Source: Alkaliphilus serpentinus
GTDB taxonomy: Bacteria > Bacillota > Clostridia > Peptostreptococcales > Natronincolaceae
Length of the DNA: 64,000 bases
Reading direction: 5' to 3'
Assembly: GCF_009017255.1 (NCBI RefSeq)
Contig: NZ_WBZB01000013.1
Location: 1-64,000, forward strand
The translations under genes were made by a program, and so were the position numbers. Below are positions 17,654-25,094 of the stretch, in pieces. Under the pieces are notes generated by a model. It was not told where the DNA came from, did not search any database, and saw only the letters and a list, made by a program, of their open reading frames with translations. Position 1 is the first letter of the stretch. Each line of letters begins with the position of its first letter.

Positions 17654-18280
17654 CTAATTAAACCAATACTTTAAGATATCCTTATACATCTTCATTCTCC
17701 ACTTGGTACCTTCATAAAAGCCAAGCTTTTCCTCCTTGGTAACATGACTAATATTCTCTAGTAATACCCGTTGAACCTTTAGTTGTTTATCTTTAATCAG
17801 CCTTGACAAAGCCATTTCTAAGCTATAACCCTCTGTATCTAGCTGAAGAACATCCTGAATTAAGGAGGCCTTCATTGCCCTTTGTCCTGATAGATTTGGG
17901 GCAATTTTTTGAGCTAAATCAGTTATTAGTCTTCCACCTTTAAATATTCCTAAGGTCATATCCATATGATCATCTTCTAATGGCTCCAATAGGGCTGAAA
18001 TATGTTGATGTCTTAAGCCAATTAAATCTGCATCCAGCATGATTATATATTCACCACTACAGTAGCTTAATCCTACTTTAATAGCTTCAGCCTTGCCTTT
18101 ATTTTCTGGTAAATCAACCAGCTTTACCCGATAATTAGAAACTTCCTCAGCAGTATCATCTTGAGAACCATCATTGACTACAATCACTTCAATTATGAAA
18201 GGATGACCTTCAACAGCTTTAAGTACTGTTCCTATTCTATTTTCTTCGTTGTAGGCAGGTATAATAGCAGAAGCCCTCAT
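17654..18280 (-). CDS. Family 2 glycosyltransferase
   Basis: This 208-residue cytosolic GT-A glycosyltransferase has the family 2 start SAIIPAYNEENRIGTVLKAV, the VVNDGSQDDT motif and the metal-binding LDADL (DxD-type) motif. It contains no membrane segment, so it resembles short soluble members that act on small acceptors. It also resembles part of glucosyl-3-phosphoglycerate synthases, but the acceptor cannot be read from sequence. The start is set at ATG (18280), 6 bases after GAGGTG; a GTG three codons earlier overlaps that site. It lies between ispG and polC, where B. subtilis has proS. Confidence 0.85.
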   Translation of the reverse strand: MRASAIIPAYNEENRIGTVLKAVEGHPFIIEVIVVNDGSQDDTAEEVSNYRVKLVDLPENKGKAEAIKVGLSYCSGEYIIMLDADLIGLRHQHISALLEPLEDDHMDMTLGIFKGGRLITDLAQKIAPNLSGQRAMKASLIQDVLQLDTEGYSLEMALSRLIKDKQLKVQRVLLENISHVTKEEKLGFYEGTKWRMKMYKDILKYWFN

Positions 18281-18294
18281 TTTTTTCACCTCAT

Positions 18295-21788: not shown

Positions 21789-22568
21789 CTATTTTAAAAG
21801 CGTTATAGCGTAATAGACAAAGGGAGCCGTAAATAATATGCTATCAAAACGATCTAAAATTCCACCGTGACCAGGAATCAGATTCCCATAATCTTTAATA
21901 CCGATATGTCTCTTAATAATGGATGCTGTCAAATCTCCTAGCATGGAGAATATACTTCCAATTAGTCCGATGATTATAATAGCTAGTATATTTTCACCAA
22001 TTACAAGATATCCAAAAATCCCACAGGATAACATGCTACCCAATCCACCACCGATGGCTCCTTCAACGGTTTTCTTCGGGCTGATTGTTGGACAAAGCTT
22101 TCTTTTGCCAAAAAAGTTCCCAGCAAAGTATGCGAAGGTATCGGATGCCCAAGCTGTTATAAAGGCAAGCCATATATAAGCTTCTTTGTCACTATTGGAT
22201 ATTAAAATAATATGTCCTAAAAAAATCCCAACATAAATAATTCCATATAGGGTTACGGCACCATCAATGATATTATATTTGTTATTGATTAAAAGTATGA
22301 TACTAATCAATAGTGTAGTGGCTACTAGAAGGAATAGAATCCTTCCTTGGGTACCAGAGAAGTAAAAATCACTTAAGATGATTAAGGTAATAATATATCC
22401 TATCCACCTTATTGGATGAATATTTTTACTTTTAAAGGCTATATAAAACTCATGTATACCAATTAGTGATACAATTAAAAGCGATAAATATAATAGGTAG
22501 CCACCATACCAAACCACAGTTATCAAGATGGGTATACCTAGTACTCCACTAATTATCCTCTTTAGCAT
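21789..22568 (-). CDS. cdsA: Phosphatidate cytidylyltransferase
   Basis: This integral membrane enzyme of 259 residues makes CDP-diacylglycerol for phospholipid synthesis. It has about seven or eight hydrophobic segments. The family signature is present near the C-terminus: IKDYGNLIPGHGGILDRFDS, preceded by SPKKTVEGAIGG. GGGGAG precedes the ATG. It follows uppS by 12 bases, the conserved order. Confidence 0.96.
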   Translation of the reverse strand: MLKRIISGVLGIPILITVVWYGGYLLYLSLLIVSLIGIHEFYIAFKSKNIHPIRWIGYIITLIILSDFYFSGTQGRILFLLVATTLLISIILLINNKYNIIDGAVTLYGIIYVGIFLGHIILISNSDKEAYIWLAFITAWASDTFAYFAGNFFGKRKLCPTISPKKTVEGAIGGGLGSMLSCGIFGYLVIGENILAIIIIGLIGSIFSMLGDLTASIIKRHIGIKDYGNLIPGHGGILDRFDSILFTAPFVYYAITLLK

Positions 22569-22580
22569 TTGTTCTCCCCC

Positions 22581-23333
22581 TTAAACTTTGCCAAACCGTC
22601 TTTCTCTTTTTTGAAAATCTGATATGGCCATCAGTAAATCTTCTCCTCTAAAGTCTGGCCATAAAATATCTGTAAACCAAAGTTCCGTATAGGCAGATTG
22701 CCATATAAGAAAATTGCTAAATCGGTATTCTCCGCTGGTTCTTATCAAAAGGTCAGGATCTGGCATATTGGCAGTTTCAAGGTAGCTACTAAAAACTTCT
22801 TGATTTATATCCTCTATACTAATCTTATCCTCTTTTATGTCCTTAGCAATCCTTTTAATTCCCCTTACAATTTCATCTCTACCGCCATAATTCAAGGCTA
22901 TATTTACCCAAAGACCTGTATTGTTTTTTGTAAGCTCCTTTGCTCTAAGAACCTCTTTTCTTGCAAATTCTGGCAGACCATCAATATCTCCAATTGTGTT
23001 GATCTTAATGTTATTTGAATGGAGCTCCTCTCCCTCTTTTCTAAGGTATTCAACCAATAGCTCCATAAGGGCAGAAACTTCATCATTGGGTCTATTCCAA
23101 TTCTCTGTAGAAAAGGCATAAAGGGTTAGATAGGCTATTTTCGTATTTGATGCAGTCTTGATGATATCTCTAAGGGCTTCAACACCGGCCTTATGCCCCA
23201 GGGTTCTTGGCAAAAATCTCTTTTTAGCCCACCTTCCGTTACCATCCATAATAATGGCTATATGTTGGGGTAATTTTTCATTATCAAGGATTATTTCCTG
23301 TAATGATGAAGGACTGCTTTTGAAGAATTTCAT
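22581..23333 (-). CDS. uppS: Undecaprenyl diphosphate synthase (cis-prenyltransferase)
   Basis: UppS makes the C55 lipid carrier for wall polymers. The 250-residue protein carries IAIIMDGNGRWAKKR, with the catalytic Asp30, then YAFSTENWNRP and PDPDLLIRTSGEYR...SNFLIWQSAYTELWF. These are the substrate-binding blocks of the family. GAGGTG precedes the ATG. It lies between the small PASTA gene and cdsA. Confidence 0.97.
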   Translation of the reverse strand: MKFFKSSPSSLQEIILDNEKLPQHIAIIMDGNGRWAKKRFLPRTLGHKAGVEALRDIIKTASNTKIAYLTLYAFSTENWNRPNDEVSALMELLVEYLRKEGEELHSNNIKINTIGDIDGLPEFARKEVLRAKELTKNNTGLWVNIALNYGGRDEIVRGIKRIAKDIKEDKISIEDINQEVFSSYLETANMPDPDLLIRTSGEYRFSNFLIWQSAYTELWFTDILWPDFRGEDLLMAISDFQKRERRFGKV

Positions 23334-23378
23334 TAGTCTTATTCACCTCTATCAATTTTAAACCCCCAAGAAGGGGGC

Positions 23379-23567
23379 TTAAAAAAAGGATATTATTAAT
23401 TCCATCTCATTTTTTGATACAAGCCTTTGCCTGATTATTCTACTATCATTGGATTTAGTGGTATTTTTTCCATAGCTCTCTTTAATTATAACTTCATAAC
23501 CAAGAATATTTAGTGCATTAATAGCTTCCTCTGTTTTAAATCCAAGGATATCAACTATTGGCTTCAA
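23379..23567 (-). CDS. Single-domain PASTA-like small protein
   Basis: This 62-residue protein consists of what looks like one complete PASTA unit: VDILGFKTEEAINALNILGY, then EVIIKES, then RIIRQRLVSKNEMELIIS. PASTA domains normally occur in tandem outside the membrane on serine/threonine kinases or penicillin-binding proteins and bind muropeptides. Here there is no signal peptide, membrane segment or partner domain, so it should be cytosolic. It starts at TTG with GGAGG 8 bases upstream, immediately after frr and 45 bases before uppS. I infer a link to wall or lipid-carrier synthesis from position only. Confidence 0.75.
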   Translation of the reverse strand: MKPIVDILGFKTEEAINALNILGYEVIIKESYGKNTTKSNDSRIIRQRLVSKNEMELIISFF

Positions 23568-23570
23568 TAA

Positions 23571-24128
23571 TTAAACCTCCATAATCTCTACTTCTTTTTT
23601 AGCTAATAGGTCATCGATTTGCTGAATGAATTTATCTGTCAATTTTTGAACTTCATCCTGAGCCTTTTTTAAATCATCTTCAGTTAATTCTCCATCCTTG
23701 TGAAGTTTCTTAAGGCTATCATTGGCATCTCTACGTTCATTTCTTATGGTAATCTTACCCTCTTCTGCTGTTTTTTTTGCAAGTTTAGATAAATCCCTTC
23801 TTCTTTCCTCTGTAAGCATGGGAATATTCAGTCGAATAATCTTTCCATCATTGGATGGATTGATGCCCAAATCTGAGGTCATGATGGCCTTCTCGATAAG
23901 TTGCATAGCTGATTTATCATAGGGTTGAACAATAATCATTCTTGGTTCAGGTGCAGAAACTGATGCAATTTGTTTCAAAGGAGTAGTGGTACCGTAATAG
24001 TCTACAGTTATTTTATCTAGCATAGCTGGATTAGCCCTTCCGGCCCTAATACTATTGAGGTCGTCTTTAATAACATTAATAGTTTTCTGCATTTTTTCTT
24101 CAAGTTCCATATGAACTTCTAAATACAT
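23571..24128 (-). CDS. frr: Ribosome recycling factor
   Basis: RRF splits post-termination ribosomes together with EF-G. The 185-residue length and blocks such as TINVIKDDLNSIRAGRANPAMLDKI, APEPRMIIVQPYDKSAM and IRLNIPMLTEERRRDLSK are diagnostic. The two-domain L-shaped fold is expected. AAGGAGGAG lies upstream of the ATG. It follows pyrH by 15 bases, the universal pyrH-frr order. Confidence 0.97.
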   Translation of the reverse strand: MYLEVHMELEEKMQKTINVIKDDLNSIRAGRANPAMLDKITVDYYGTTTPLKQIASVSAPEPRMIIVQPYDKSAMQLIEKAIMTSDLGINPSNDGKIIRLNIPMLTEERRRDLSKLAKKTAEEGKITIRNERRDANDSLKKLHKDGELTEDDLKKAQDEVQKLTDKFIQQIDDLLAKKEVEIMEV

Positions 24129-24143
24129 ATAATCTCCTCCTTT

Positions 24144-24869
<726 letters not shown>

Positions 24870-25061
24870 CTATATATTTCTACAGCTATATAAAAAATCC
24901 TCTTTATGTTTAATCTATTTAATAGAATATAATTCAACTTAAATCTACACTACGATATATTTTGCTTCCTGAGATCCTACACTGTTTTCTAAATTTCTCT
25001 GTTTTAAAGTATAGAGAAAGTGCCTTCATAAATAAAGTATTTCTTTATCACATTTTATTAT

Positions 25062-25090
25062 AAAGGAGAACACAAGTAGTGTTCTCCTTT
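25062..25090 (-). terminator. Hairpin after tsf, likely terminator
   Basis: A perfect 12-bp stem (AAAGGAGAACAC/GTGTTCTCCTTT, loop AAGTA) starts 4 bases after the tsf stop. On the minus strand the arm ends in TTT followed by ATAATAAAA, so the T run is short. Partial termination between rpsB-tsf and pyrH is the likely role. Confidence 0.65.
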
Positions 25091-25094
25091 GCTT

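Follow-up and report, generated by a model that had tools for sequence, protein, structure and literature searches.

A candidate cytosolic, stand-alone PASTA-fold protein encoded between frr and uppS in Alkaliphilus serpentinus and widespread in its phylum

The 64,000-nt stretch of Alkaliphilus serpentinus DNA analyzed in this study (the window) encodes, directly after the ribosome recycling factor (RRF) gene frr, a small protein, here called X, for which sequence profiles and a predicted model strongly indicate a PASTA fold (a helix and three strands). X appears to be a cytosolic, stand-alone PASTA protein that is widespread in the phylum, and no description of it was found in the literature searched. 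PASTA domains have been studied as sensors outside the cell, of the wall and of beta-lactams. Among the titles and abstract openings searched (subscription papers were mostly outside this set), none dealt with a PASTA protein that stands alone next to frr or uppS; the ‘single PASTA domain’ of PMC3145798 belongs to the penicillin-binding protein PBP2.

Gene Organization

X is coded on the minus strand, and frame 1 of the plus strand holds three stops over the same positions. The neighbors recognized above the NCBIfam cut-offs are tsf, pyrH and frr upstream and uppS, dxr, rseP and ispG downstream (Table 1). From stop to stop, the frame of X counts 63 codons, in which the TTG start (positions 23565–23567, 3 nt past the frr stop) is the sole ATG, GTG or TTG before codon 55. 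Beyond the domain, such a frame therefore leaves no space for a signal or a membrane anchor, in line with the first-pass annotation, which had described the protein as lacking a signal. Judged from its sequence, the product should stay in the cytosol. X is a real gene: of the 17 close pairs, 14 have a dN/dS below 0.4 (and one more is saturated), and its Shine-Dalgarno sequence is built into the end of frr.

Table 1. Features around X in the window.
Feature	Position	Strand	Evidence or remark
X, 62-aa protein with an indicated single PASTA fold, TTG start, TAA stop	23379..23567	-	ORF and homology
frr, ribosome recycling factor; last codons ATG GAG GTT TAA hold the Shine-Dalgarno sequence of X	23571..24128	-	TIGR00496, E 9e-70 (NCBIfam)
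Shine-Dalgarno sequence GGAGGT of X, inside the frr end, 7 nt before TTG	23575..23580	-	
Hairpin core CCCCC-ttctt-GGGGG, then TTTAAAA, from 1 nt past the X stop	23363..23377	-	
uppS, undecaprenyl pyrophosphate synthase, 45 nt past X	22581..23333	-	TIGR00055, E 2e-92 (NCBIfam)
pyrH, UMP kinase, upstream of frr	24144..24854	-	NCBIfam, above cut-off
cdsA-like phosphatidate cytidylyltransferase, downstream of uppS	21789..22568	-	NCBIfam match below the model's cut-off

No Rfam family matched the window at the gathering threshold, and a promoter scan was uninformative (29 promoter-like sites versus 25 expected). Two further features were observed in the window: a strong hairpin of 13 pairs between tsf and pyrH (25061–25091) and a small ORF, named by eye as glycosyltransferase-2-like (17654–18289), which lies directly past ispG in the same direction.

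Relationship to PASTA Domains

The first-pass annotation had described X as a single PASTA unit and proposed a profile search with PF03793 as well as structure prediction to check it. The profile search fails on the window protein taken alone, which matched no Pfam or NCBIfam model at E ≤ 10, a result that by itself would count as the refutation named in that annotation. It succeeds on the relatives, 24 of 33 of which matched PF03793 at E ≤ 1 (best E 1.5e-6). The protein of Alkaliphilus peptidifermentans scored 23.3 bits against a PF03793 cut-off of 23.2, and in the family search relative G008 was also above this cut-off. When 10 members were scanned (one of them also among the 33), three exceeded 23.2 bits (24.9, 26.2, and the 23.3 of A. 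peptidifermentans), five fell below and two had no PASTA match. There was no Pfam or NCBIfam model specific to the X family among the matches, PASTA being the only family that many members match.

Comparison of profiles extends this picture. Searched against solved structures, a profile of the 33 relatives hit PASTA kinases at E 5.5e-7 and, at E 4.4e-4, the designed repeat protein 4yxx. With hhalign, a 45-member profile aligned to 12 PrkC-type PASTA repeats of the same order with a probability of 96.7 (E 4.2e-10), compared to at most 0.6 for 30 column-shuffled controls and 0.1 for the reversed control. The AlphaFold2 model, built from four sequences (pLDDT 86.3, pTM 0.70), shows a predicted helix (residues 12–21) on a three-stranded sheet (25–31, 42–51, and 54–61). 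VIA-align returned PASTA in 24 of 25 rows at Z ≥ 5.5, with a best Z of 7.3 (PrkC of S. aureus), values below 8 being middling according to the tool's own note. The sole non-PASTA chain among the high rows was chain J of 8s7v (Z 6.3), and the next group reached 4.2. Foldseek ranks 1 to 21 were all PASTA-bearing chains, at E-values (0.10–1.2) that by themselves are not significant. A viral fold library gave no match at E ≤ 0.001, with two PASTA-named phage proteins among its rows, and X matched none of the viral contigs searched. The single PASTA-fold unit described in the first-pass annotation is supported.

X shares the fold, the N-terminal P-[DN]-[VL]-x-G and the helix pattern with the PASTA domains of PrkC, PknB, and Stk1 (PF03793). 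Unlike these, it is single, without a kinase and without an export signal, has a shorter stretch between the last two strands, and carries a basic strand (R-V-I-R-Q) and, in order-level members, an aromatic C-terminal end. The PASTA domains of PBP2x, PBP1, and SpoVD have the fold in common with X (PBP2x takes seven of the first eight Foldseek rows), whereas X has no transpeptidase, no membrane anchor and no tandem arrangement. Chymotrypsin inhibitor 2 and eglin c resemble X in their helix-strand arrangement (VIA-align Z up to 4.2) but rank below all 24 PASTA rows of that table, and one weak potato-inhibitor match in one of the 33 relatives is the sole sequence support for such a kinship. The extracytoplasmic, tandem arrangement on a kinase or penicillin-binding protein is not found in X, which is a single unit from its first residues; the 146 relatives listed are between 58 and 89 aa long. 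We conclude that X shares homology and fold with PASTA, which does not imply the same location or ligand. To our knowledge, binding of muropeptide, lipid II or beta-lactam is not a trait of every PASTA domain.

The basic strand, R-V-[IV]-R-Q-[RK] with R43, R46, and R48 in the window protein, is specific to the X family. In the alignment of 210 members, 83% of 208 sequences have R at position 43 and 85% have a basic residue there, while positions 46 and 48 are basic in 91 and 63%, respectively. The places of R43 and R46 hold K or R in two and three of the 12 PrkC repeats, and Q47 is common to PASTA. All 33 relatives in the alignment carry R43 and the C-terminal F62, two residues that strand pairing would place face to face. 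The strand does not render X basic overall, as the median pI is 6.2.

Distribution and Synteny

Conservation of the gene beside uppS, which the first-pass annotation had proposed to check, is confirmed across relatives: at E ≤ 1, the family's 20 genomes, that of A. serpentinus among them, all gave a match, as did 36 of the 60 relatives overall. Of these 36, 34 hold X after frr, and the other two matches are long frames elsewhere. Alkaliphilus pronyensis, A. peptidifermentans, and A. transvaalensis are among the relatives with X. In wider samples, the X profile was matched at E ≤ 0.001 by 80 of 391 genomes of the class and 180 of 398 genomes of the phylum, tallies that include long frames which by length are PASTA kinases and penicillin-binding proteins. 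The DNA was read at the short-frame matches listed, which in the phylum sample extend to about E 7e-5, and at further loci retrieved by their position.

The resulting set comprises 234 loci, of which 205 were chosen by their X match and 29 by frr, the latter from genomes with no match in at least one earlier search for X. X was present at E ≤ 0.01 in 210 loci (205 of 205 and five of 29, respectively). Three more of the 29 (L171, L184, and L185) hold an X-like ORF recognized by eye; the profile therefore misses diverged members and the counts are lower bounds. Two additional short-frame matches outside this set (G497 and G666) are likewise flanked by frr and uppS. In several families that retain frr, no X was found.

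In all 205 loci chosen by X, the gene immediately upstream is frr (at 60 nt or less in 201 and at 67–200 nt in four), and the same is true for all 210 loci with X (206 within 60 nt). Downstream, 201 of the 205 loci have uppS as the next gene, no more than 600 nt away; three others stop at the contig end and one is split. For the full set the corresponding number is 205 of 210, with five exceptions: L013, L222, and L259 stop at a contig end, and two genomes show real splits. In both, uppS is located on another contig, and frr and X are followed by an aspartokinase-like ORF (G478) or an SmpB-like ORF (G049), both named by eye. G049 was fetched via its frr and is biased, so that G478 alone is unbiased. 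In two further genomes with frr and uppS apart (G064 and G065), X was found beside neither gene. X lies a median of 2 nt from frr (n = 146) and 134 nt from the UppS match (range 8–524, n = 143). The genes frr and uppS adjoin in loci without X as well. In G766 (L165, L204, and L205), the uppS gene next to X is fragmented, with its pieces in different frames. A fusion of X and frr was considered for L144 and L169 and rejected, the long open frames there being in another frame than frr.

Coupling to frr

The sequence GGAGG lies in the last codons of frr in 119 of the 210 loci with X, and in 34 of 34 at the order level, versus two of 21 loci without X. RRF ends with Met-Glu-Val in 120 of the 210 loci with X. 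The Glu codon of this ending is GAG, which creates GGAGGT, in 98 of these 120 loci versus two of eight loci without X (Fisher p 0.0014, the sequences not being independent). The two latter loci are L191, with uppS immediately downstream, and L198, truncated by a contig end. At the order level, GAG is used in 17 of 17 Met-Glu-Val endings, versus 149 of 612 Glu codons (24%) inside frr genes. We interpret this excess at the frr end as a sign that selection on the DNA favors translation of X; X is probably made by translation coupled to frr.

The TTG start is kept in 26 of 34 order-level genes, across genera. With start codons called by one heuristic for all genes, TTG was found in none of 34 frr, none of 33 pyrH, two of 33 uppS (four undetermined) and one of 32 cdsA genes of the order.

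Most evidence ties X more closely to frr than to uppS, since the Shine-Dalgarno sequence lies in the last codons of frr, a hairpin often separates X from uppS and X stays with frr in the two splits. The tree similarity of X leans weakly to UppS and is not decisive. In a sample of 138 loci, where X is saturated (mean distance 2.0), the partial similarity of its tree, given pyrH, was 0.174 with UppS and 0.102 with Frr, and Frr was above UppS in only 5% of half-samples.

The Gap Between X and uppS

The 12-bp folded stem of the window hairpin reaches back into the stop and the last Phe codon of X (z -3.15). Its T run is short, with three T before A, and the hairpin was not listed by the terminator scan. 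Across loci, 70 of 138 gaps between X and uppS hold a terminator-like hairpin, versus 7.1 expected. A hairpin of a C run and a G run occurs in 136 of 199 gaps versus 3.0 expected, and in none of 198 pyrH stretches of the same length. The hairpin is conserved in sequence, often as CCCCCTC-loop-GAGGGGG and T. The pattern CCCCCN{3,10}GGGGGTT has between 0 and 23 sites per genome on both strands in 20 genomes, counts that in some genomes are similar to those of the reversed control pattern. According to the coordinates, the junction site is present in 14 of the 20. The hairpin is therefore not a common repeat. It is also present in four of 15 X-less gaps that measure 17 nt or more; L170, L174, L180, and L181 are X-less loci that keep it. 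In the two genomes with frr-X and uppS apart, it is absent at both places. The hairpin thus seems to go with the frr-uppS junction. A search of 17 loci against Rfam gave one match far below the cut-off, which we took as chance.

In 51 of 143 gaps (e.g., L087, L126, and L167), an ORF resembling a two-cluster 4Fe-4S ferredoxin (CxxCxxC) is located between X and uppS, and in many distant lineages it sits between X and the hairpin. The ORF of L126, the one tested, is an FdxA-type ferredoxin (E 3e-21). The window gap and 91 others of the 143 are without such an ORF.

Possible Roles of X

We tentatively propose, from sequence features, that X may be a cytosolic binding or adaptor domain with RRF or the ribosome as its partner. 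X would be made together with RRF through its coupling to frr and would remain in the cytosol, where the basic strand (R43, R46, and R48) would bind an acidic partner; the likeliest candidates are RRF and the post-termination ribosome or its RNA. X would then act in ribosome recycling or its regulation and not in wall sensing. Several observations speak against this proposal. Coupling of genes in operons is common and need not mean a physical partnership, the tree similarity leans to UppS, the split in G049 is biased, and in G064 and G065 X was found beside neither gene. In addition, the median pI of X is 6.2, a ferredoxin-like ORF follows in part of the gaps (51 of 143), X was not found in several families with frr, and the window hairpin, with its short T run, escaped the terminator scan. 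The first-pass annotation had proposed wall-precursor sensing or modulation of UppS, because uppS adjoins and because of the functions of extracellular PASTA domains. This idea is not supported: the Shine-Dalgarno sequence of X lies in frr, a hairpin often precedes uppS and X persists with frr in the two splits. A role at the inner face of the membrane, where X would bind UppS or its product, undecaprenyl pyrophosphate, and so adjust the supply of lipid carrier, is weighed here as doubtful. It agrees with uppS being next in 201 of 205 loci (three of the other four ended by the contig end), with the higher partial tree similarity to UppS (0.174 versus 0.102) and with the binding of muropeptides by the extracellular PASTA domains of PknB (PMC3145798), but X and the UppS match are separated by the hairpin and a gap of 8–524 nt, uppS is parted from X in two genomes and frr and uppS adjoin without X too.

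It is unlikely that X is a cytosolic carrier or sensor of another small anionic ligand (a wall nucleotide, polyprenyl phosphate or RNA), with its place after frr just setting the expression level. The conserved basic strand would suit such a ligand, as would the weak TTG start, kept in 26 of 34 genes (frr 0 of 34) as if a low fixed dose mattered; however, no ligand site can be named, and only PASTA is a family matched by many members. Cooperation with the two-cluster ferredoxin encoded after X, for example to bring electrons to IspG, is improbable: the CxxCxxC ORF in 51 of 143 gaps, the FdxA-type protein of L126 and the presence of ispG in the downstream cluster of the window are consistent with it, but X occurs without such an ORF in the window and in 91 other gaps. 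Binding of X to the hairpin 3' of its own gene, with control of read-through into uppS, is disfavored as extremely improbable. The hairpin is conserved and commoner with X (136 of 199) than without (four of 15), and X carries a basic strand, but X-less L170, L174, L180, and L181 retain the hairpin, and the two split genomes lack it both at X and at uppS.

Returning to RRF or the ribosome as partner, we also consider, with considerable doubt, that an intracellular version of the PASTA fold, widely conserved beside frr in the phylum, may have become a partner dedicated to either, possibly tying translation to the downstream wall-lipid genes. If true, a conserved intracellular PASTA member made together with RRF would represent a different use of the fold, and an unnamed small protein that many families of the phylum possess would enter the ribosome-recycling or the wall-lipid pathway.
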